A DNA stretch of 64,000 nt from Aureitalea sp. L0-47 (GTDB taxonomy: Bacteria; Bacteroidota; Bacteroidia; Flavobacteriales; Flavobacteriaceae): contig NZ_JAFMTQ010000008.1 in NCBI RefSeq assembly GCF_026126405.1, positions 1 to 64,000 on the forward strand. Direction: 5' to 3'. This document shows, in pieces, positions 13,189 to 53,334 of this stretch; the first letter of the stretch is position 1; the number at the start of each line of letters is the position of its first letter. The position numbers were made by a program, and so were the translations under genes. The notes under the pieces were generated by a model. That model did no database searches, had not been told where the DNA came from, and saw nothing but the letters and a program-made list of their open reading frames with translations.

Positions 13189-13236
13189 ATACGTCAATTG
13201 CCTTATTGAGTGGCGTTGGGTATTAGGGCATCTTTG
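13189..13236 (+). promoter_or_regulatory. Palindromic operator and promoter, site A
   Basis: ATACGTCAA-TTGCCTTAT lies at 13189-13206. The right half is perfect and the left half matches 7 of 9. The -7 element CATCTTTG is at 13229-13236, with centre-to-element spacing 31.5 nt. A TTG at 13206-13208 could serve as -33. It is shared with sites B-E and precedes the DUF6252 lipoprotein. Confidence 0.75.
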
Positions 13237-13265
13237 TCCTGTTCAATTACTAAAACCCAACAATT

Positions 13266-13805
13266 ATGAAAACTCTAAAAACATCAATCTACTATATGTT
13301 CCTGTGTCTGTCACTGGTGCTAACAGCATGTAGTTCGGACGATGACAATGCAAACAACAATCAGCAAAATAACGGAAGTGGTGAATTATTCACTGCCAAG
13401 ATCGATGGAACCGACTTCGCCGCTTCCATGGATCCAGCTACTTTGATCGGCGGTACAAAATCCACGGCCAACGGCATGACAGTGGTTAGCGGGCAAGGAA
13501 GTACAAATAGCGGAGATTTTATCAATTTCAATATTATCGGTTACAACGGACCTGGCACTTACAAGACAGGAGACAATCTAACCAATCCCAATGCGCTTCA
13601 GTACGGCGAACTAGCTGGTCAATCCGCCAATGTATGGGCGTCAAACCTTGCAACTTCTGCTGCCGGGATCGCACCAGGAACCATCGAGATCACTGTGGAC
13701 GCCGATGGAAAGATAGAAGGTACTTTCTCTTTTGAAGGTTACAACGCCCAGGATATGACATCCAAGATGATCACCCAGGGTCAGTTTAAATTCTCGATCG
13801 ACTAA
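13266..13805 (+). CDS. DUF6252-type lipoprotein
   Basis: A 179-residue protein with a lipoprotein signal peptide and lipobox LTAC at residues 19-22, so Cys22 is the lipidated residue. An Asp/Asn-rich linker (SSDDDNANNNQQNN) follows. The mature domain begins with FTAKIDGTDFAA and is rich in Gly, Thr and beta structure, resembling the DUF6252 family common in Flavobacteriaceae, which has no known function. It should sit in the outer membrane or periplasm. It is preceded by operator site A and followed by a terminator, so it is monocistronic and a likely target of the response regulator at 21814. Confidence 0.8.
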   Translation: MKTLKTSIYYMFLCLSLVLTACSSDDDNANNNQQNNGSGELFTAKIDGTDFAASMDPATLIGGTKSTANGMTVVSGQGSTNSGDFINFNIIGYNGPGTYKTGDNLTNPNALQYGELAGQSANVWASNLATSAAGIAPGTIEITVDADGKIEGTFSFEGYNAQDMTSKMITQGQFKFSID

Positions 13806-13852
13806 TCATTATATTATTTGAAGGAAATCTCAGTGTTGAGGTTTTTACGTGG

Positions 13853-13893
13853 AACCGGTAGCAATGCTTCGTGCAGTGCTTCCGGTTTTTTTT
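13853..13893 (+). terminator. Rho-independent terminator after the DUF6252 gene
   Basis: A long hairpin runs from AACCGG at 13853 to CCGGTT at 13882-13887, with inner arms AGCA/TGCT. It is followed by an eight-T run. Confidence 0.85.
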
Positions 13894-13920
13894 GTGTTTA
13901 AAAGGCGGTAGACAAACAGA

Positions 13921-13968
13921 ATAGGGCAATTGCCCTATTGAATGGCGTAGGCTATTAATTCATCTTTG
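13921..13968 (+). promoter_or_regulatory. Palindromic operator and promoter, site B
   Basis: ATAGGGCAATTGCCCTAT at 13921-13938 is a perfect 18-bp palindrome. The -7 element CATCTTTG is at 13961-13968 and TTG at 13938-13940. Sites A and B also share TGGCGTnGGnTATTA between palindrome and -7. An upstream TTG codon at 13966 falls inside the -7 element, so translation must start at ATG 13993. Confidence 0.85.
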
Positions 13969-13992
13969 AATAACAAATTAAAAACCACGATT

Positions 13993-15852
13993 ATGAAACT
14001 TTCAATCGAGATTAAGAAACTTGCCGGGCTACTGTTCTTTTTAAGTACTATTGCCATGGCACAAAGGGCGGAAGCCCCTGATTTTCGCTACGATGTTGGC
14101 GGGAAGATTAACGATATGACCCTCACGCAGGGTGGCACCATGGTTGTGGCTACCAATGACGGATTGGTAGGTATCAAGCCGGGAAACAACGATTTACTAT
14201 TTAATTTCCAGGATTACGGCCGGGTAAAACCCGAAGAACTCTTCTTCGTTCCAAATGCGCCCTACCTGGTTGTGGGTCAAACCGGTTTTGGTGCCATGAC
14301 CACCAAAAAAGCGGTGATCGATTATATGTCCGGGAAGAAACTCTTCAGTACGGAGGACAACGGATGGAAAATGGTCTGGACCTGTGATGTGATGATGCCG
14401 GAAAATAAATTGGTGGTAAGCGGTCAGCGCAGGGCTGCCGATAAATATGCCAATGCTGTAGCTATTTACAACCTCGATTCAGGTGAGCAGGAGCACTATT
14501 TTACAATGAAAGGTTCCGAAACGGTGAGTGGAAGGCCCTTGTTGCTGAAAGACGGCCTTATTCTTCCAACCACGAAAACCCTTAAAAAGATAAGCATGAG
14601 TGGTGGTGGTATCGATTGGTCGATCAAGGTAGATGATATCAAGTGGATGGTTGCAGACGAGACCGAAAAGGAGATCTATGGATTCGAGATATCTGCCAAT
14701 GGTTCGAACACCAAGGTACACAAAATAGGAAGCAATGGAAGCCTGCTTTGGGGTGACCCTCATAAGGTGAAAGGTCATGTAGTGAATTTCGAAATCCTGC
14801 CACAGGGTCTGGCGATTGTTAGTAATGTGGATAATTCCGGAAAATCGGGACTAGCGAAACTGGCCAGCGCCAAGGCGGAGTCGAAGATCGGTTTCTTAAG
14901 TGCGGCAAACGGAGAGGATCTATGGGAAAAGGCGCCTAAAACCAAGGGATATGTGCAGCATTTTTACATCATGGAGGATGGTATTCTATTCGGAATTTAT
15001 GAAGGAGGGATCAACAAGATCTCCTTCGACGGGAAGACCTTGTTCAAAAAGCCACTGAAAACCGGCGAGAATATACTTACCATGGCACAAACCGACCAGG
15101 GGTTGATCTATATCACTTCAGAAGATGCCAACATTGTAAATCTTGAAACAGGAGACCCGATATGGAAGAAACCATTGAAATATAAGCGAGCCGATGCTGT
15201 GGCTTCGGCTTATGACGAAAAGAATGGACGCTACCTCATTAGTGCTGATGAAGACTTGTTCAGTGTTGATGCCGCTAATGGAGATGTTTCCACTTTAGCA
15301 GAATCCAAATTCGACGGAAAAGAAAGCCCAACCGATGTAGAAGTACGAAACGGAGGAATACTGCTAACCAGTGATCAGAATATGATGCTGCTGGACTGGG
15401 GAGGAACCACAAACTGGCATGAGTATCACAGGGCGCCCGGTAAGAGTGCTGTTGGAGCGATCCTAATGGGGCTTACTGCAGTAGCAACCGCCGCAACCGC
15501 AACAGCTGCCTATGCCGAAGCAAATGCCAACAGGAACCGTCTGGGATATTATACCTCAAAAGGAGAAGCCTACGCCGATCTTGGTGACGGTATGGCTATG
15601 GCGACCGGAGCGTCGGTAGCCGAGATGTTACGCCGATTTAAAGCTACATCGGCCACTGAGAATGCACAATTCGTTTTAACCAAACTAGACGAAGGGGTAG
15701 GTCTGGTGAAACTCAATAAAGATACCGGGGCCGTCGAAAAAGAGATCGTCCTTAAGGACAAAAAACCAGAGTACAAAGTGGATGATTTCGGAGGGATCTT
15801 GTATTACAAAGCCGATAATAACTCCATCTTCGCTTACGATCTTAAGAAGTAA
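13993..15852 (+). CDS. PQQ-type beta-propeller protein, secreted
   Basis: A 619-residue protein with a signal peptide (about residues 1-24, cleaved before QRAEAPDFRYDVGG). A long run of about 40-residue beta repeats of PQQ/quinoprotein-propeller type follows, with blades ending in D/GE-x-L-W-E-K or I-W-K-K. There is no catalytic signature for alcohol dehydrogenase and no obvious PQQ-binding residues. Near residue 487 is an Ala-rich hydrophobic segment (GAILMGLTAVATAATATAAY) that could cross or lie on a membrane. It probably acts as a binding or scaffold propeller. It is preceded by operator site B and terminated by the hairpin at 15908, so it is a single-gene member of the regulon. Confidence 0.78.
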   Translation: MKLSIEIKKLAGLLFFLSTIAMAQRAEAPDFRYDVGGKINDMTLTQGGTMVVATNDGLVGIKPGNNDLLFNFQDYGRVKPEELFFVPNAPYLVVGQTGFGAMTTKKAVIDYMSGKKLFSTEDNGWKMVWTCDVMMPENKLVVSGQRRAADKYANAVAIYNLDSGEQEHYFTMKGSETVSGRPLLLKDGLILPTTKTLKKISMSGGGIDWSIKVDDIKWMVADETEKEIYGFEISANGSNTKVHKIGSNGSLLWGDPHKVKGHVVNFEILPQGLAIVSNVDNSGKSGLAKLASAKAESKIGFLSAANGEDLWEKAPKTKGYVQHFYIMEDGILFGIYEGGINKISFDGKTLFKKPLKTGENILTMAQTDQGLIYITSEDANIVNLETGDPIWKKPLKYKRADAVASAYDEKNGRYLISADEDLFSVDAANGDVSTLAESKFDGKESPTDVEVRNGGILLTSDQNMMLLDWGGTTNWHEYHRAPGKSAVGAILMGLTAVATAATATAAYAEANANRNRLGYYTSKGEAYADLGDGMAMATGASVAEMLRRFKATSATENAQFVLTKLDEGVGLVKLNKDTGAVEKEIVLKDKKPEYKVDDFGGILYYKADNNSIFAYDLKK

Positions 15853-15907
15853 CTAACTAACCAGGTTACACCGTTTGCAAATATTGAGGAGTGTTTGCAA
15901 CACACTG

Positions 15908-15932
15908 AACCCCATCTTGTATGGGGTTTTTT
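15908..15932 (+). terminator. Rho-independent terminator after the propeller gene
   Basis: An AACCCCAT stem (15908-15915) pairs with ATGGGGTT (15921-15928) across a five-base loop, followed by six T. Confidence 0.9.
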
Positions 15933-15944
15933 GTTCTTGGTGAA

Positions 15945-15992
15945 CTAAGGCAGTTGCCTTATTTTACATTATGAACAATTTTCGGTACTTTG
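15945..15992 (+). promoter_or_regulatory. Palindromic operator and promoter, site C
   Basis: CTAAGGCAG-TTGCCTTAT lies at 15945-15962. The -7 element GTACTTTG is at 15985-15992, at the same 31.5-nt spacing. The upstream TTG codon at 15990 overlaps the -7 element and is therefore not the start of the MORN gene. Confidence 0.82.
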
Positions 15993-16016
15993 GATATCAC
16001 TAAAGACCAATCAATT

Positions 16017-17414
16017 ATGAGATCTTGTTTTAGCAACTTGCTATTCGCAATAATGCTTTGTCCAATTTTGTATTTACAGGGGCAGGTTCAGCAACCTAAA
16101 TCGACAACCACAAAGGTTCTATCCTGGAAGAAGACAACCGATTCCACCTATACACTCTTTGATGCCAAGGGTAAACAGATTCGAAACGCGAAAGAACTCA
16201 ACAGACTGAGAACCGATACCTTGAGTTACCTTGATCAGGATTCACGAATCTTATATCTATTGCCCGATTGTGTGGATGCCGATGTGGGAAGCAGCGGAAA
16301 GCTGTCAGTTCTCAAGCGTAACATCGGTAAGGATTTTTATATCACGAATGAAAAATCATTCGCAACCTACATTGATGATGAAAGTTACAATGGGGAGTTT
16401 GTGAATATGGATGGGAACTATATCTACTATATTGAGGAGTTTGACAAAACATTCTTTCATAAGGACATTCGGAAATTTCCAAGCTGGGGTGCCAGAAACC
16501 TTGAAGAATTACCAAAATCTCCTGACAATGCCTACTGGTATAGAAATTCGGAAACAAAGAATTATTGGGTCATAGTAAAAGGAGATCATTTAGATTACGA
16601 TGTAACCAGAGCTCGAAGAAATGGTGATGATGTGATCATTCTTATAGATGATAAGCCCACCTATAATTTACCGGGCTATTACACCATGGCTTCCTACGTG
16701 GTGAAACCTGTGGAACTTTACGAAGGTAATACGGAAGAGCCGGCCAAAACAGGTTGTGTTTATGGTAACTGTGACTACGGATGGGGAAAGTGGCAATACG
16801 ATGATGGAAATTATTACGATGGATTTTGGTCCAACGGTCTTAAGAATGGTTACGGTCTTTACTCATGGAAGGGCATTGGCCAGTATATTGGGAACTGGGA
16901 GAACGACGGTATGAATGGATACGGAGCGTATCTGCCAGACAACGACAACGATATGGTTGGACAGTTTCGCAATGGCGAATTGGACGGTCTTGGATATGAG
17001 ATAACAGATGATGTCTGGCGAAGAGGAGTTTTTGTAAATGGTGTACTTTCTGAAGAGTTTACTTATGCCCGAAACGAAGGTGAACTTGGATGTACATCGG
17101 GTGATTGCCAGGACAAATACGGTTCGTACTGGCTCGAAAATGGGGACAACTTCATTGGATTTTTCAAAAACGGAAAGATGCACCAGGGATCGTATAAATT
17201 CGCGAACGGAGACCGATACGTGGGTATGTTCAATGAAAAAGAAGAGTTTCACGGAATGGGTCGTTACTTTTTTGAATCTGGTGCATATTACGGCGGTGAG
17301 TGGAAAAACGGCAAATATCACGGAAGAGGCTATTACGAAGATGTCGATGAGACGCCGCAGATAGGCGAATGGACCGAGGGTGTTCTCACCAAAGTCTATA
17401 AAACATCGAATTGA
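16017..17414 (+). CDS. MORN-repeat protein, exported
   Basis: A 465-residue protein with a signal peptide (residues 1-23; hydrophobic core LLFAIMLCPILYLQG). Residues 25-240 have no recognised domain. From about residue 245 there are two blocks of MORN repeats. Each is introduced by G-C-x-x-G-x-C (GCVYGNCDYGWG and GCTSGDCQDKYG), followed by units of the form NGxxYxGxWxNGxxxGxG. MORN repeats are beta-hairpin modules that often bind lipid or protein. Its expression should follow operator site C. A gap of only 35 nt with no terminator links it to the first kinase gene, so it may be an accessory or sensory partner of that kinase. Confidence 0.85.
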   Translation: MRSCFSNLLFAIMLCPILYLQGQVQQPKSTTTKVLSWKKTTDSTYTLFDAKGKQIRNAKELNRLRTDTLSYLDQDSRILYLLPDCVDADVGSSGKLSVLKRNIGKDFYITNEKSFATYIDDESYNGEFVNMDGNYIYYIEEFDKTFFHKDIRKFPSWGARNLEELPKSPDNAYWYRNSETKNYWVIVKGDHLDYDVTRARRNGDDVIILIDDKPTYNLPGYYTMASYVVKPVELYEGNTEEPAKTGCVYGNCDYGWGKWQYDDGNYYDGFWSNGLKNGYGLYSWKGIGQYIGNWENDGMNGYGAYLPDNDNDMVGQFRNGELDGLGYEITDDVWRRGVFVNGVLSEEFTYARNEGELGCTSGDCQDKYGSYWLENGDNFIGFFKNGKMHQGSYKFANGDRYVGMFNEKEEFHGMGRYFFESGAYYGGEWKNGKYHGRGYYEDVDETPQIGEWTEGVLTKVYKTSN

Positions 17415-17449
17415 TCATCATGTTCTATCATCCATCTTAGATAGCAAGA

Positions 17450-19474
17450 ATGAAACGGATTTTATTCCTCATTGTACTAAGTTTTCCTTCACTTCTTATT
17501 TCCCAGAAAGAAGTAAGTATTGACAGCGTTTTACTATTCGCCACAAGGAATTACACGGCACAACCGGATAGTGCTCAGTACTATTTACATAAAGGCATTC
17601 AATTAGCCGAGGCGATCGATGATGATTACCAGAAAGGACTATTTCTAACCAAATTAATTCAGCAAAAAACAAGAATTCGCGATTACGACAGTGCTCGCTT
17701 CTATTTTAGAAAAGCGCATAGGTTCCTTAGAGAAGCCGGTCAGGATATTTTGTTACCCGATAGCCATAGTGAGATCGCCGAAACTTATTACTACATGGAA
17801 AAGATGGATTCGGCCTTGTATCATTTCAAGCAGGCAGATTCCCTCTACGCAAAGGATGGTGATAGTATTGGAGTGCTAATTTCTAAGAATAATGTGGCTA
17901 ACGTCTACCAGATCCTGGGTAACTATGAAGGAGCTATTGAGAACATGCTCCAGGCGATCAAGAATGTGGATACTACCCAATATCTCTATATCAAGGTTCA
18001 GTTGTATTTGAATGTTTCTGAATTGTACCAGCAAATTGAAGAACCATCGCTCGCCAGGCATTATGCGAAAAAGTCGCTCGACCTTTCCCTTACAAATACC
18101 AACTACCCGGACGATATGGTAATGGCTTATATCAAATTGGCCGGTTATGCAACGGAAGACAAGGAGTATGAAAAAGCCAGTGAGTACAATCAATTGGCGC
18201 AGGGTGTGGTAGATGATTACAATCTGGATATGATCCAGTTCCAGGTTTCCAAGTCGAACGCGAATCTCTTAATTGCGGAAGAAAGTTACGAGGAGGCAAT
18301 TTTGGAGATCAACCAGGCACTAAAAATAGCCGAGCAGGCAAAGCGCAATGACTTTGAGGTGTTTTCTCTCCGTAAGAACCTGGGAATTTGCTATGCAAAG
18401 ACCAACAAACCGCAACAAGCAATCTCATTGCTGAACGAGGTGTTGGACAATACCATTGAAGACGGGCGTCTCGACGATATCAGTTCGGTCTATTTCAGTC
18501 TTTCCGAAGCACATGAAAGTTTGGGAGATTACCGAGCAGCCATAGACAATTACAAAATGTATCGTACGTACAACGACAGCATCCTGGGGAAAGATAAGCA
18601 GGTGGCTATTCGCGATGCCATGGTGAAATATGAAACCGAACGCAAGGAAAGAGACCTGGCTGAAACCAGGGCTGATCTGGCTGAGAAAGAGCTGGAAGTA
18701 CGTAACAAGAACATGCTTATTTTCGGTGGGTTCGGACTGGCCATCCTACTTGGCCTGCTAGGTTACCTGTTCTACAACCAGCAAAAGCTCAAGAACCGGC
18801 AGTTAAAGAAAGAAGCCGAATTACAAACTGCCTTGGCCAGGATAGAAACTCAGAATCAACTTCAGGAGCAACGTTTGAGGATCTCAAGGGATCTGCATGA
18901 TAACATCGGTTCTCAACTCACCTTTATTATTTCATCGGTGGATAATTTGAAGTTCGGACTAAAGGACGGTTCAACGGCTGTAACCGATAAACTTGGTGGC
19001 ATTAGCAGGTTTGCTTCGGAAACTATTTACGAGCTCAGGGATACTATTTGGGCGATGAATAAGAATAGTATCACTTTCGAGGACCTCCAGGTGAGGATTT
19101 CAAATTTTATTGAAAAAGCCAGGGAAAGTAGTTCTAATATTGAGTTCGATTTTAGTATTTCTGAAGAAATTCCGAAGGACCATAAGTTTACGTCCATTGT
19201 GGGAATGAACCTGTACCGTATCATACAGGAAGCCGTGAACAATGCCCTGAAGTATTCCGAAGGAACCTTGATTCGGGTTAAGATCTCGGGTGACCCATCG
19301 GCGATTAAAATCGAGATATCCGATGACGGAAAAGGATTTGATCCGGCTGCGATCTCAATGGGCAATGGTATCAGGAATATGCGGAAACGAGCCCAGGATA
19401 TCAAGGCGAAGATCAACATTACGAGTGATGACAACGAAGGCACTAAAGTGAAGCTAGTGTTGGCTTCAGAATAA
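17450..19474 (+). CDS. TPR sensor histidine kinase 1
   Basis: A 674-residue membrane kinase. After a signal peptide (residues 1-19) a periplasmic array of TPR units spans about residues 25-380. A coiled coil (RKERDLAETRADLAEKELEV) leads into one transmembrane helix near 422-444. The cytoplasmic part has a HisKA_3 domain with the phosphoacceptor His483 in RISRDLHDNIGSQL, and a HATPase_c domain with N-box NLYRIIQEAVNNALKYS and G-box GNGIRNMRKR. HisKA_3 kinases pair with LuxR-type response regulators, and one is encoded at 21814. It is cotranscribed with the MORN gene. Its paralogue is the next large gene. Confidence 0.93.
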   Translation: MKRILFLIVLSFPSLLISQKEVSIDSVLLFATRNYTAQPDSAQYYLHKGIQLAEAIDDDYQKGLFLTKLIQQKTRIRDYDSARFYFRKAHRFLREAGQDILLPDSHSEIAETYYYMEKMDSALYHFKQADSLYAKDGDSIGVLISKNNVANVYQILGNYEGAIENMLQAIKNVDTTQYLYIKVQLYLNVSELYQQIEEPSLARHYAKKSLDLSLTNTNYPDDMVMAYIKLAGYATEDKEYEKASEYNQLAQGVVDDYNLDMIQFQVSKSNANLLIAEESYEEAILEINQALKIAEQAKRNDFEVFSLRKNLGICYAKTNKPQQAISLLNEVLDNTIEDGRLDDISSVYFSLSEAHESLGDYRAAIDNYKMYRTYNDSILGKDKQVAIRDAMVKYETERKERDLAETRADLAEKELEVRNKNMLIFGGFGLAILLGLLGYLFYNQQKLKNRQLKKEAELQTALARIETQNQLQEQRLRISRDLHDNIGSQLTFIISSVDNLKFGLKDGSTAVTDKLGGISRFASETIYELRDTIWAMNKNSITFEDLQVRISNFIEKARESSSNIEFDFSISEEIPKDHKFTSIVGMNLYRIIQEAVNNALKYSEGTLIRVKISGDPSAIKIEISDDGKGFDPAAISMGNGIRNMRKRAQDIKAKINITSDDNEGTKVKLVLASE

Positions 19475-19477
19475 AAA

Positions 19478-19525
19478 ATAAGGCGATTGCCCTATGGAAT
19501 AGTCGGGGTAATAATCCTACTTTTA
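19478..19525 (+). promoter_or_regulatory. Palindromic operator and promoter, site D
   Basis: ATAAGGCGA-TTGCCCTAT lies at 19478-19495, starting just after the kinase 1 stop codon. The -7 element TACTTTTA is at 19518-19525, at the same 31.5-nt spacing. The GGGGTAATA between them echoes sites A and B. Confidence 0.8.
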
Positions 19526-19546
19526 TCTGAATAACTATTAATAACC

Positions 19547-19789
19547 ATGACGGATATTATTGTTTGTGTTTTTATATGTATTGTAGCCGCTGTATTGCTC
19601 CTGCATTATCGTAATGTTCGAAGGATCACCACAGAACACAATAACGAAATGACATATATGAACAATGAATATGAAAAGAATCGTAGTCAAATGGTGAAGA
19701 GAGAATCCGGGCTCAATGGTTATGACTTTCTCAAATATAATTTACAACAATCGCTTATTGTTCAACCGGGTATTTCAATCAATGTTTAA
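19547..19789 (+). CDS. Small single-pass membrane protein in the signalling island
   Basis: An 80-residue ORF. Residues 3-22 are a strong hydrophobic helix (IIVCVFICIVAAVLLLHYR). A polar, charged stretch (residues 26-60) and a short tail follow. I recognise no family. Support for it being real is positional: it has its own promoter (site D) ending 21 nt before its ATG, and its stop overlaps the start of kinase 2 by 8 nt, which suggests translational coupling. It could be a small kinase-interacting protein. The alternative is that it is only a translated leader for kinase 2. Confidence 0.6.
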   Translation: MTDIIVCVFICIVAAVLLLHYRNVRRITTEHNNEMTYMNNEYEKNRSQMVKRESGLNGYDFLKYNLQQSLIVQPGISINV

Positions 19790-21725
19790 ACATATCAAGC
19801 TCCTCGTTTTAATCTGCTGTACAAGTTCTGTATTTGCCCAGGATCCTATTGACAGTCTGCGGAACGTTGCTGGGGACCAAACAGGGATCGAATTGGTAAA
19901 AACCTTCAACGAGCTGTCCTGGCACTACAAGAACAGGGACCTGGACAGTGCCGATTATTTTGCCAATAACGCTATCATCGAAGCTGAAAAATTAAAGGAC
20001 GATAGATCGATTGCTTCCGCTTTCAACAGTAAGGCCAGTGTTTTTGAAGCCAGGGGAGTGCTGGACAGCGCAAAATTGTATCACGAGAGAGGCCTTGAGC
20101 TTAAAATTGCAATACAAGACAGCTTAGGAATGGCCGATTCCTTCAACAACCTCGGGATCATCTATGATGAAAAAGGCGATTATTCCGAAGCAATTTCGCA
20201 CTACTTCCAGGCACTGGAGATATACGAAGAAAAAGCAACTGAATTCGACAAAGTACCTATGGTGCTGGTCAATATTGGGATAGTCTACAAAAAACAGAAA
20301 GAGTTCGACAAGGTCCTTGAATATTACGAAAGAGCGCTTGAGATCTACAGGGAGAACGACTCGGACTTTGGTATTACCATTACCACGGGAAATATAGGTT
20401 CGGTGCTATTGAATCTGAAGGAATTTGAGGAATCCATTCGGTATTCTGAAGAAGCCATGCAAGGATATAAGAACTTGGGCTACGATCGATACGTCCCCTA
20501 TATGCTGATCAATATGGCCGTTGCCAGGGACAGTCTGAGTGACTACACCAAGGCGAAACAATTGTACGATCAATCTGTTTCATTGTTTGAGCAGGACAAT
20601 AATCTGTACGAGTTATCGAATGCCAGGATCGGCTTGGGATCCTTAATGACAAAACAGGGAGATGTTTCGGGAGGAATTACGGTTCTAAACGAGGCTCTGC
20701 AAATGGCCGAAGCCAATGGTTTCATGGAATTTCGTGTCAAAGCCCTGAAAGAACTATCAAAAGCTGAAGCTCAACGTGGCAACTACCGGGCAGCCCACGA
20801 TTTTTCCAGTCGCTACGCCAGGGGTATAGATAGTCTGTTTTCCAAAGAGAAAACCGAGGCCATTGTTGAAATGGAAGCCAAATACGAGACCGAAAAGAAG
20901 GAAAAAGAGATCATGACCCAACGTGCTGAACTGGCCGAGAAGGAACTGGAAGTGAAGAGAAAGAACAATATGATCTTTGGGGGATTTGGATTGGCTTTTG
21001 TACTGGCATTGATAGGTTATTTACTCTACCAACAGCAAAAATTGAAAAACCGACAGCTCAGGAAAGAAGGTGAATTGAAGGCGGCACTTGCAAAGATCGA
21101 AACTCAAAACCAACTCCAGGAACAGCGACTCCGTATATCGAGGGATCTGCATGACAATATCGGCGCCCAGCTCACTTTTATCATTTCAAGCCTGGATAAC
21201 CTGAAATATGGATTCAAGAACATGAGCGAAGGACTGGAATCCAGGCTACAAGGAATAAGCGGCTTCACGAGTCAGACCATTTATGAACTACGGGATACCA
21301 TTTGGGCAATGAACAAGAACGGTATTAGCCTGGAAGACCTGCAGGCGAGAATAACGAATTTCATCGATAAGGCACAGTGGGCAAATAAGGATACCAGCTT
21401 TCAATTTTTTATTTCAGAAGGACTCCAAAAAGACGAAACTTTTACATCCACAAAGGGGATGAATATCTACCGCATCATACAGGAAGGGGTGAACAATGCG
21501 ATGAAGTATTCAGAAGCTAACGAAATCAATGTTCGGATCGATGCGGAGGATTCCAATTGTACCGTCCTCATCGAGGATAACGGTATCGGTTTTAATATGA
21601 ATGACATAGAAACGGGCAATGGGCTTAATAATATGAAGAAAAGAGCTTCCGATATTGGCGGAGTCCTTGAAATAAAGTCCAAAGACAAAGAGGGAACACG
21701 TTTACAACTGCGTTTTCCTTGCTAA
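19782..21725 (+). CDS. TPR sensor histidine kinase 2
   Basis: A 647-residue paralogue of the kinase at 17450. The start is the ATG giving MFKHIKLLVLICCTSSVFAQ, a clear signal peptide; an upstream in-frame ATG would bury it. Periplasmic TPR units fill residues 35-350. A coiled coil with TQRAELAEKELEVKRKN and a transmembrane helix (IFGGFGLAFVLALIGYLLY) follow. The HisKA_3 His457 lies in RISRDLHDNIGAQL, and HATPase_c has NIYRIIQEGVNNAMKYS and GNGLNNMKKR. The cytoplasmic and membrane parts closely resemble kinase 1 while the TPR sensor part has diverged, so the pair probably senses different partners but feeds one regulator. It lies downstream of site D. Confidence 0.93.
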   Translation: MFKHIKLLVLICCTSSVFAQDPIDSLRNVAGDQTGIELVKTFNELSWHYKNRDLDSADYFANNAIIEAEKLKDDRSIASAFNSKASVFEARGVLDSAKLYHERGLELKIAIQDSLGMADSFNNLGIIYDEKGDYSEAISHYFQALEIYEEKATEFDKVPMVLVNIGIVYKKQKEFDKVLEYYERALEIYRENDSDFGITITTGNIGSVLLNLKEFEESIRYSEEAMQGYKNLGYDRYVPYMLINMAVARDSLSDYTKAKQLYDQSVSLFEQDNNLYELSNARIGLGSLMTKQGDVSGGITVLNEALQMAEANGFMEFRVKALKELSKAEAQRGNYRAAHDFSSRYARGIDSLFSKEKTEAIVEMEAKYETEKKEKEIMTQRAELAEKELEVKRKNNMIFGGFGLAFVLALIGYLLYQQQKLKNRQLRKEGELKAALAKIETQNQLQEQRLRISRDLHDNIGAQLTFIISSLDNLKYGFKNMSEGLESRLQGISGFTSQTIYELRDTIWAMNKNGISLEDLQARITNFIDKAQWANKDTSFQFFISEGLQKDETFTSTKGMNIYRIIQEGVNNAMKYSEANEINVRIDAEDSNCTVLIEDNGIGFNMNDIETGNGLNNMKKRASDIGGVLEIKSKDKEGTRLQLRFPC

Positions 21726-21743
21726 TTCAAATTGTGATGTAGA

Positions 21744-21791
21744 ATAAGGCAGCTGCCTTATGTTCGGTTAAAAATAAACGCTGTAGATTTA
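21744..21791 (+). promoter_or_regulatory. Palindromic operator and promoter, site E (autoregulatory)
   Basis: ATAAGGCAGCTGCCTTAT at 21744-21761 is a perfect 18-bp palindrome. The -7 element TAGATTTA is at 21784-21791, at the same 31.5-nt spacing. The response regulator ATG follows 22 nt later. This placement implies autoregulation if the regulator is the binding protein. Confidence 0.82.
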
Positions 21792-21813
21792 TACTGATGC
21801 AAAACTTGAGAAA

Positions 21814-22464
21814 ATGAATCTAAAGGTAGCCATAGTAGACGATAACAGTTTCCTTATCCACGCGATAAAGGAAAAGCTGTCTTTCTTTGAAGACATTACA
21901 GTTAAGGCTACTGCATTGAACGGAAGTGAGTTGTTGGAAAGGCTTGAAGAAAGTCGCAACGTGGACGTTATCCTAATGGATATTGAAATGCCGGTTCTGA
22001 ATGGAATTGAAGCTACCCAGGTAGTGAAACAAAAGTATCCGCAGATCAAGATCATCATGCTCACAGCCTTCGACAATGATGAAAATATCTTTAGCGCGAT
22101 CAAAGCCGGGGCCGATGGTTACCTGCTGAAGGAGATCAATCCGGACGACCTCTACAACGGGATCAAGGAGACTATGAATGGCGGAGCAGCCATGAATCCT
22201 TCCATTGCACTTAAGACATTGAAGTTACTTCGGAATCCAATAGATATCGATAACCCGAGAGACCAGGAAGAGATCTCACTTTCGAAACGAGAAGTAGAGG
22301 TTTTAGAGCAATTGAGTAAAGGTCTTAGCTATACCTTGATAGCAGACAATCTTTTCTTATCGCCCAGTACGGTTAGGAAACATATCGAGAATATCTACAA
22401 GAAATTACAGGTGCACAGCAAGATCGAGGCAGTCCAGAAGGCGAAAAGGCATAATATTATTTAG
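21814..22464 (+). CDS. LuxR/NarL-type response regulator
   Basis: A 216-residue two-domain regulator. The receiver domain has acidic residues D9/D10, phosphoacceptor D56 in VILMDIEMP and the conserved switch Lys in LLKEI. The C-terminal LuxR HTH (LSKREVEVLEQLSKGLSYTL, then LSPSTVRKHIENIYKKLQV) binds DNA as a dimer, which fits a symmetric operator. It lies immediately after two HisKA_3 kinases and carries the perfect palindrome (site E) in its own promoter. I infer that it is the cognate regulator and binds sites A-E. The direction of control is not decidable from sequence, but the site position near -42 favours activation. Confidence 0.93.
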   Translation: MNLKVAIVDDNSFLIHAIKEKLSFFEDITVKATALNGSELLERLEESRNVDVILMDIEMPVLNGIEATQVVKQKYPQIKIIMLTAFDNDENIFSAIKAGADGYLLKEINPDDLYNGIKETMNGGAAMNPSIALKTLKLLRNPIDIDNPRDQEEISLSKREVEVLEQLSKGLSYTLIADNLFLSPSTVRKHIENIYKKLQVHSKIEAVQKAKRHNII

Positions 22465-22580
22465 AAGTCGGAAGTCGGAAGTCGGAAGTCAGAAGTTAAA
22501 AGTCGGAAGTCGGAAGTCGGATGTAAGTTTTGTTGTGTTCAACAACAAACAACAAACAACAAACAACAAACAATGAACAT
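22463..22580. repeat. GAAGTCG heptamer array and AACAAAC repeats
   Basis: Seven or so GAAGTCG-like units occupy 22463-22521, followed by AACAAAC units at 22540-22573. They lie between the 3' ends of the response regulator gene and metK. They belong to the same repeat family as at 76-111 and 7972-8150. Confidence 0.75.
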
Positions 22581-51678: not shown

Positions 51679-53334
51679 ATGAGAAAAGTTTTACTTTACT
51701 TTTTTCTTTTTTCGATAATCATTACTTCCTTCGCTCAGGAAGGGCAGGACTATTATCCGGTTAGTTGGGAGCACAATCTACGTTCGGTAACACCTATCGA
51801 ACTGTCTCCTTTGGACCTTACGCAGATTCATCAGCAGGATTTAATCAATGACAGAGATAAGAGTTTACCCTGGCGTTATGGAGTAAACAGGTCTTTGCAA
51901 ATCGACATTCAGCAACAAGGGGAATTAACCGTCTTACCAAATGGTGATAAAGTTTGGCAAATGGCCATTCATTCACCCGAGGCGATCAATTTAAGCGTAA
52001 ACTTCAGGGAACTCTACATGCCACAAGGCGGTAGGTTGCATTTTTTCAATGACGACGGTACAGACCTTTCCCGGACTTATACACAAAACAGCAATAGGCC
52101 CGACCTACGATTAGGGTCCTGGTTTGTGGAGGGGGATATTATTAGGATAGAATACTTCGAGCCAGCAGTGGTTCAAGAGGATGCAAGTTTGCTATTGGAA
52201 GGCCTAATCCATGGATATAGGATGGGACAGGTAACTACCTTTGTCGATGGCATGAGGGGCCTCAATGACTCCGGAGATTGTAATTACGACGTAAACTGCC
52301 CTATTGGAGAGGATTTCGACGATAAGAAGGACCTTGTAAAAAAGGCAGTTGCCCTTCTTAATCTTGGCAACGGGTACCTTTGTTCGGCCGTACTGATGAA
52401 CAATACGGCGAGAGATAAAACACCTTTCTTACTAACAGGAAACCATTGTTTAGAAAATAGTGATCCGGCGCTTTGGTCGGTACGCTTTAATTGGGTAAGT
52501 CCGAACCCCGTCTGCGGAACAGAAGGCGACAGTGGAGATATTCAGACAAATTTTACCATGAGTGGTGCCGAATTGAAGGCAAATAATTCTCTCAGCGATT
52601 TTGCGCTGGTTGAACTCTTCGATGAAATACCAGGTACATGGGACGTTGCATTCGCCGGTTGGGATAATACGGACGAAATACCCTTATTTGAAGTAGGTAT
52701 TCACCACCCGAACGGTGATATCATGAAGGTGTGTCGTGATGATAGCGGTGCTATTAAAGAGAACGCCAACGGTACCGAGGTTTGGTTGATAAAAGGTGTT
52801 TCGGTGGGTAATGGAGACGGATGGGAAATAGGAACTACCGAGAGCGGGTCATCAGGATCGCCCTTGTTCAACGAATCCGGACACGTAATCGGCCAATTAT
52901 ACGCCGGGCAAGCTTTCTGTGAAGGAACCCAGAATAACGGTGATTACGATATTTATGGCAGGTTTGGTATTTCGTGGAACGCAGGCCCTGATGCCAACAG
53001 CAGACTAATGGAATGGCTTGATCCGGATGGAACAGGTCAATCTACTGTAGACACTATGCAGAACATACTTTCTGTACAGGACAATGTGTTAACAGGTCAA
53101 TTGAGCATATATCCAAACCCAGCCTCTACACAAATTACTGTAGAAAACTCAAGATACCCGAACCTGGTGTATCGCTTCTACACAGTAACGGGGCAAATGC
53201 TTTCCAGCGGATCTTTGTCCAGTACAATGAATATGATAAGCGTGGAATCTTACACCAGGGGTGTCTATTTCCTTCACCTTATCGACGAAGATAGTGGTGC
53301 CGATATCACTAAGAAGATCATCATTAACCGCTAA
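51679..53334 (+). CDS. Trypsin-like serine endopeptidase with type A T9SS sorting domain
   Basis: A 551-residue secreted protease. After the signal peptide (residues 1-19, ending in SFAQ) comes a pro-region of about 180 residues. The catalytic domain carries His in LLTGNHCLEN near 254, Asp in LSDFALVELF near 306 and Ser in ESGSSGSPLFN near 392. The arrangement and the Cys-rich start (GDCNYDVNCP) resemble lysyl endopeptidase (protease I) of the S1 family. The last 80 residues (LSIYPNPAS to KKIIINR) are the Por-type secretion C-terminal domain, so it leaves the cell by T9SS and is probably attached to the surface or released. Confidence 0.9.
   Translation: MRKVLLYFFLFSIIITSFAQEGQDYYPVSWEHNLRSVTPIELSPLDLTQIHQQDLINDRDKSLPWRYGVNRSLQIDIQQQGELTVLPNGDKVWQMAIHSPEAINLSVNFRELYMPQGGRLHFFNDDGTDLSRTYTQNSNRPDLRLGSWFVEGDIIRIEYFEPAVVQEDASLLLEGLIHGYRMGQVTTFVDGMRGLNDSGDCNYDVNCPIGEDFDDKKDLVKKAVALLNLGNGYLCSAVLMNNTARDKTPFLLTGNHCLENSDPALWSVRFNWVSPNPVCGTEGDSGDIQTNFTMSGAELKANNSLSDFALVELFDEIPGTWDVAFAGWDNTDEIPLFEVGIHHPNGDIMKVCRDDSGAIKENANGTEVWLIKGVSVGNGDGWEIGTTESGSSGSPLFNESGHVIGQLYAGQAFCEGTQNNGDYDIYGRFGISWNAGPDANSRLMEWLDPDGTGQSTVDTMQNILSVQDNVLTGQLSIYPNPASTQITVENSRYPNLVYRFYTVTGQMLSSGSLSSTMNMISVESYTRGVYFLHLIDEDSGADITKKIIINR

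Follow-up and report, generated by a model that had tools for sequence, protein, structure and literature searches.

Which protein binds a series of closely matching palindromes that precede the genes of a sensory island in Aureitalea sp. L0-47 (Flavobacteriaceae), and to what effect? The island lies within the first 64,000 nt of contig NZ_JAFMTQ010000008.1 (the whole stretch analysed, hereafter the window), and it encodes exported proteins, two histidine kinases and a response regulator (RR) of the NarL/FixJ type. Judged from sequence, seven such palindromes, five in the island and two elsewhere in the genome, are most probably operators of this RR (21814-22464), through which it would activate the exported-protein genes as well as its own signalling genes.

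Palindromes and promoters of the island

When the 18-mer ATAAGGCARYTGCCYTAT was matched against the window at up to three mismatches, with 100 shuffles serving as the null, 11 strand-matches were obtained where 0.34 were expected, and none of the 100 shuffles reached 11. All five sites named in a preliminary description of this DNA were located where that description placed them (Table 1), including the two claimed to be perfect palindromes; its typed consensus holds as the 18-mer, but has zero matches if read as a 19-mer. At each of the five island sites, the palindrome is separated by exactly 22 bases from an 8-base -7 element (31.5 nt from the centre of the palindrome to the first -7 base), and the start codon of the unit follows 21-29 nt past that element, the same distances as had been claimed. 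The characterization of the -7 elements as TAnnTTTG-like is correct as to their position, but strict TAnnTTTR is found in only two of the five, the others being CATCTTTG twice and GTACTTTG once.

A scan of the entire 3.38-Mb genome (G000) with the composite pattern ATANNGCANNTGCCNTAT-N22-TANNTTTR, at up to three mismatches, returned seven matches, each facing a gene start, versus none for the reversed pattern used as a control. Because of this outcome, chance is excluded as the source of the identical spacings, as the preliminary description had argued; with seven promoter-facing sites and no control matches, the search therefore gave no sign of random occurrence outside promoters. The five units assigned to the regulon are retained, but a regulon of five is too small: outside the window, one further site (C2:109913, L001) lies 47 nt 5' of the start of a gene for a 444-aa exported TPR protein, and another (C6:22570, L081) lies 57 nt 5' of the start of a gene for a 169-aa exported barrel-type protein, the latter operator being kept in both G000 and a second genome, G001. 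A window match at 52340 (three mismatches) is without a -7 element at the right place and was taken as chance, and the matches on C11, C18 and C67 were read likewise.

Additionally, a gene for a C1A-peptidase-like exported protein has an operator in both of the genomes that carry it, G001 and G018 (L083:4133, L084:3967), and is absent from G000 and ten others among the 13 genomes searched. Since gene and operator are found only together in these two genomes, both may have moved jointly.

Alignment of 159 distinct sites yields the operator consensus A-TA[CAG]G[GTA]CA-NN-TG[CTA]C[CGT]TA-T, that is, TAVGDCA-N2-TGHCBTA, two inverted heptamers separated by a 2-bp gap (7-2-7). In the same sites the spacer is mostly near random while the -7 element has A at position 2 and TTT at positions 5-7, such that palindrome and -7 element are conserved and the flanks and spacer are not.

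Table 1. Predicted operators, -7 elements and genes of the island (window coordinates)
Feature	Position	Strand	Sequence	Context or product
Operator 1	13189..13206	+	ATACGTCAATTGCCTTAT	5' of DUF6252 lipoprotein gene
Operator 2	13921..13938	+	ATAGGGCAATTGCCCTAT	Perfect palindrome; 5' of propeller gene
Operator 3	15945..15962	+	CTAAGGCAGTTGCCTTAT	5' of MORN-kinase 1 unit
Operator 4	19478..19495	+	ATAAGGCGATTGCCCTAT	5' of small protein-kinase 2 unit
Operator 5	21744..21761	+	ATAAGGCAGCTGCCTTAT	Perfect palindrome; 5' of regulator gene
-7 element	13229..13236	+	CATCTTTG	DUF6252 promoter
-7 element	13961..13968	+	CATCTTTG	Propeller promoter
-7 element	15985..15992	+	GTACTTTG	MORN-kinase 1 unit
-7 element	19518..19525	+	TACTTTTA	Small protein-kinase 2 unit
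-7 element	21784..21791	+	TAGATTTA	Regulator promoter
DUF6252 lipoprotein	13266..13805	+		179 aa, PF19765
Propeller protein	13993..15852	+		Exported beta-propeller, 619 aa; PQQ_2, BamB-like repeat
MORN-repeat protein	16017..17414	+		Exported, 465 aa
Histidine kinase 1	17450..19474	+		674 aa; TPR region, HisKA_3, HATPase_c
Small membrane protein	19547..19789	+		80 aa; transmembrane helix, coiled coil, conserved YDFLKYNLxEAL-like tail
Histidine kinase 2	19782..21725	+		TPR region, HisKA_3, HATPase_c
Response regulator	21814..22464	+		NarL/FixJ-type, 216 aa; REC (Asp56) and LuxR-type helix-turn-helix; proposed binder of all operators

Operator and regulator across the Flavobacteriaceae

The gene order alaS-GSCFA-DUF6252-propeller-(MORN)-kinases-RR recurs in other genera, with single genes lost or diverged, and metK follows the RR gene in the closest relatives. 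Operators likewise recur in relatives 5' of the DUF6252, propeller, MORN, small protein-kinase 2 and RR genes. Upstream of the RR gene itself, a palindrome at three or fewer mismatches is present in 26 of 38 orthologue loci, and 17 of these also have a -7 element (one mismatch at most) at an offset of 22 bases. Within 80 related loci from Altibacter, Ulvibacter, Aequorivita, Mesonia, Dokdonia, Gilvibacter, Gelidibacter, Bizionia, Algibacter, Flavobacterium and other genera, offset 22 accounts for 66 occurrences of exact TAnnTTTR, compared with 12 at offset 31, eight at 32, seven at 21, and zero to three at every other offset between 8 and 59.

While the loose composite pattern, with its three permitted mismatches, is usable in G000, background swamps it in AT-rich relatives, and the family was therefore surveyed with the strict palindrome. 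This survey covered 199 Flavobacteriaceae genomes from 198 genera, an RR orthologue being defined by E <= 1e-50 and a palindrome by a perfect match to ATAVGDCANNTGHCBTAT. Orthologues were found in 52 genomes and perfect palindromes in 36; the palindrome is present in 30 of the 52 RR-positive genomes versus 6 of the 147 RR-negative ones (Fisher one-sided P = 7e-16), with 93 sites in the former group and nine in the latter. A reversed control pattern has no association with the RR (P = 0.27). A first survey of 60 genomes, partly overlapping with this one, had given 13 of 15 RR-positive versus 2 of 45 RR-negative genomes (P = 2e-9); because the genomes are related, such P values overstate independence, although the larger family survey took nearly one genome per genus. 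Of the six RR-less genomes with a palindrome, one site apiece was inspected, and none had a -7 element (one mismatch at most) at offset 22 on either side, whereas in the same comparison all 25 loci from RR-positive genomes have at least one site so placed. A further site from an RR-positive genome, G033:C2:176903, is without a -7 element at offset 22; in the same genome, a site within a fabG-like gene (G033:C2:86755) was judged a chance match despite a weak -7. Taken together, the comparison with related genomes that the preliminary description had called for indicates that the operator tracks the RR, and the proposal made there, that the LuxR-type regulator of the island is the natural binder, is strongly supported by this co-occurrence, by the operator before the RR gene in many genera and by the 7-2-7 geometry.

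Beyond the presence of the operator, the promoters themselves fall into two types, and this split between output and signalling genes recurs across genera. In front of the DUF6252 and propeller genes, the palindrome's final T doubles as the first base of a TTG at the -33 position (23/25 and 24/25, respectively), and the -7 element has C as its first base in the same proportions (23/25 and 24/25) and G as its last (CAnnTTTG). TTG is rare at the small protein-kinase 2 unit (3/27) and the RR gene (4/40), where the -7 element mostly ends in A (24/27 and 31/40, respectively) and mostly reads TAnnTTTA. One guess is that at output genes a weak -7 element works together with a -33 contact, and that at signalling genes the activator takes the place of the -33 element. 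The split offers a natural experiment on an activator replacing this element.

Proposed mechanism and its alternatives

The RR consists of a receiver domain (PF00072, residues 5-116) followed by a LuxR-type helix-turn-helix domain (PF00196, GerE, residues 155-210), and its phosphoacceptor set, as read from the translation, is intact (D9/D10, D56, T84, K106). Kinases of the HisKA_3 type usually partner NarL-type regulators. It is probable that the two TPR-containing kinases detect signals and bring about phosphorylation of the RR at Asp56, and that a phosphorylated RR dimer would bind beside the -33 region, one heptamer per subunit, and recruit RNA polymerase carrying sigma-ABfr. Such recruitment would activate the exported effectors (the DUF6252, propeller, MORN, barrel-type and TPR proteins) and raise the levels of the RR and the kinases, amounting to positive autoregulation. 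What the effectors do for the cell is the most speculative part: a role in cell-envelope homeostasis is suggested because the targets are for the most part exported or lie in the membrane and because the closest solved regulator is VraR.

Activation and positive autoregulation are deduced solely from the position of the sites. In F. johnsoniae the -7 element runs from T-12 to G-5 (PMC6847099); extrapolated with this numbering, the palindrome would extend from -52 to -35, with its centre at -43.5 rather than near -42 as put in the preliminary description. The reference range for activators beside the -35/-33 element is about -41.5 to -44.5, counted from a mapped transcription start. Operators of NarL likewise consist of inverted heptamers with a 2-bp gap (PMC7419079); at ogt the centre of such a site is at -44.5, which puts it 32 bp from the -10 element, and at yeaR NarL acts as sole activator from one such site just 5' of -35 (PMC7419079, PMC9314961). 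The geometry found here suggests that NarL-style activation beside -33 also works with the unusual sigma-ABfr polymerase.

Several observations weigh against this account. The perfect palindrome is missing in 22 of the 52 RR-bearing genomes, some of which have degenerate sites before the RR gene; in G049, whose RR orthologue is a distant one (about 48% identity), the RR gene is not preceded by an operator; and the sites underlying the consensus were picked by pattern, such that their fixed positions are partly imposed. Moreover, a fixed position by the -33 region is also compatible with repression. The RR might then bind the same operators and block RNA polymerase at -33, loss of phosphorylation or of binding freeing the genes, with negative autoregulation as the result. 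That the operator abuts the -33 region, and that the TTG is fused to it in the DUF6252 and propeller promoters, where a polymerase contact could be masked, are both in keeping with repression. Nevertheless, we consider it unlikely, given that a centre near -43.5 and a strictly fixed helical position fit NarL activation sites, that repressor sites usually vary in position, and that signalling promoters without TTG would be expected if an activator substitutes for it.

Less likely still, and by a good way improbable, is that the palindromes are bound by another transcription factor whose gene lies outside the island and whose phylogenetic distribution is the same, the RR being one target among others. 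The link between RR and operator is, admittedly, one of co-occurrence; however, the RR is the sole DNA-binding protein encoded in the island, the 7-2-7 layout suits a NarL-type dimer, and palindromes of the same layout adjoin other NarL-type RR genes (see below). Finally, although self-complementary 18-mers recurring within 9 kb could suggest a dispersed repeat or an RNA hairpin, this can be practically dismissed, since the palindromes lie upstream of the -7 element and hence outside the transcript of that promoter, palindrome and -7 element are conserved where flanks and spacer are not, and the composite pattern is confined to gene fronts in G000.

The small membrane protein whose gene overlaps the start of kinase 2 is a possible accessory sensor of that kinase. 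It has no match to any Pfam or NCBIfam family, LiaF/VraT included. Its relatives at about 30 loci have in common one transmembrane helix, a coiled coil and a YDFLxYNLxEALxVQ tail. Separately, short degenerate repeats (ggaagtcggaagtcgga..., caacaaacaacaaacaac) occupy the interval between the RR gene and metK (22463-22580).

Candidate sister systems and known regulators

Palindromes of related form are found beside other NarL-type RR genes. In G000, an RR paralogue next to sucB (C22:130519) has TACGTGTTAACACGTA just downstream (L101:2133 = C22:131151), spaced from a -7-like element as in the island; an open reading frame (ORF) encoding a small hydrophobic peptide follows. G011 and G035 have another NarL-type RR, which is directly followed by ATACGTAAYRTTACGTAT palindromes, 22 nt before a -7-like element. 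Tandem cassettes lie between a second NarL-type RR gene and sucB (L119:3350-3900, L120:2826-3180), each running from ATACGTAAYRTTACGTAT through 22 nt, a -7-like element, a conserved tgctattaat...cttaggg stretch and a terminator-like hairpin (AGCTCTGG..CCAGAGCTTTTTT) to a hydrophobic ORF of about 33 aa; they resemble small RNAs, or small membrane peptides subject to attenuation, and would be controlled by the second RR. A third NarL-type RR of G035, with an adjacent TPR protein gene (L124:2509-3151), is immediately followed by ATACGTAAGCCTACGTAT, again with this spacing to TAATTTTG. At G000:C22:42930 (L265:1532) and in L121-L123, TACGTGATTTCACGTA stands at the exact spacing to TATCTTTG (TATATTTG in L121) and precedes a short non-coding stretch that is conserved (ccagtttttggcaatttggggagattgct) and, in G000, closes with a terminator-like hairpin, making the C22:42930 stretch a candidate small RNA of a sister regulon.

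These sister operators were seen by pattern, in a small sample and without statistics; an earlier search beside the RR paralogues of G000 for 7-2-7 palindromes with at most one half-site mismatch had given nothing convincing. We put at roughly even chances a broader scheme in which paralogous NarL-type RRs of the Flavobacteriaceae all use TAC....-N2-....GTA palindromes of the 7-2-7 type, locked 22 nt (from the end of the 18-mer) from the sigma-ABfr -7 element, with identity carried by the inner half-site bases (TAVGDCA in the island; TACGTAA and TACGTGA/TACGTGT in the sisters), together with two conserved promoter types that part output from signalling genes. Confirmation would mean that these systems have a positional code in common and owe their specificity to the inner bases of the half-sites.

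An open-access literature search gave no earlier description of the operator or the island. The regulator and its regulon are previously undescribed, although of an already known kind (NarL/FixJ-type), and NarL-type regulons of Bacteroidota, whose promoters are unlike those of E. coli, seem poorly charted. Regulator, operator and promoter geometry can now be specified, along with seven or more target promoters, in a pattern that occurs in dozens of flavobacterial genera; this makes it possible to test directly what signal a widespread orphan sensory system responds to.

Among known systems, VraSR/LiaRS, which respond to envelope stress in Firmicutes, share with the island HisKA_3 kinases and an accessory small membrane protein in the operon, and VraR is the closest solved structure to the RR by sequence (119 bits). 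They differ in phylum and in kinase sensor (61-62 bits with the LiaS model, versus a cutoff of 450), and the 80-aa protein matches no LiaF/VraT family. FimS-FimR of Porphyromonas gingivalis likewise includes a TPR histidine kinase from the Bacteroidota, and kinase 2 matches the FimS model; however, the scores of 113.6 (kinase 2) and 52.9 bits are far under the cutoff of 600, and the island is without fimbrial genes. NarL of Escherichia coli (NarX/NarL; yeaR, ogt) is also a NarL/FixJ-type RR using inverted heptamers with a 2-bp gap, in a single site that adjoins the -35/-33 region and precedes the -10 or -7 element by about 32 bp. Unlike that system, the island has TPR regions in its kinases where NarX-type sensors would be expected, a sigma-ABfr promoter, and a local, probably autoregulated regulon of predicted exported proteins; the RR scores 132 bits with the NarL equivalog model, below its 250-bit cutoff. 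The half-site differs as well, TAVGDCA versus TACYYMT, the outer TA being invariant and the inner bases GDCA, and because of this departure from the NarL consensus the system is best regarded as NarL-like in geometry and family, but not as NarL.

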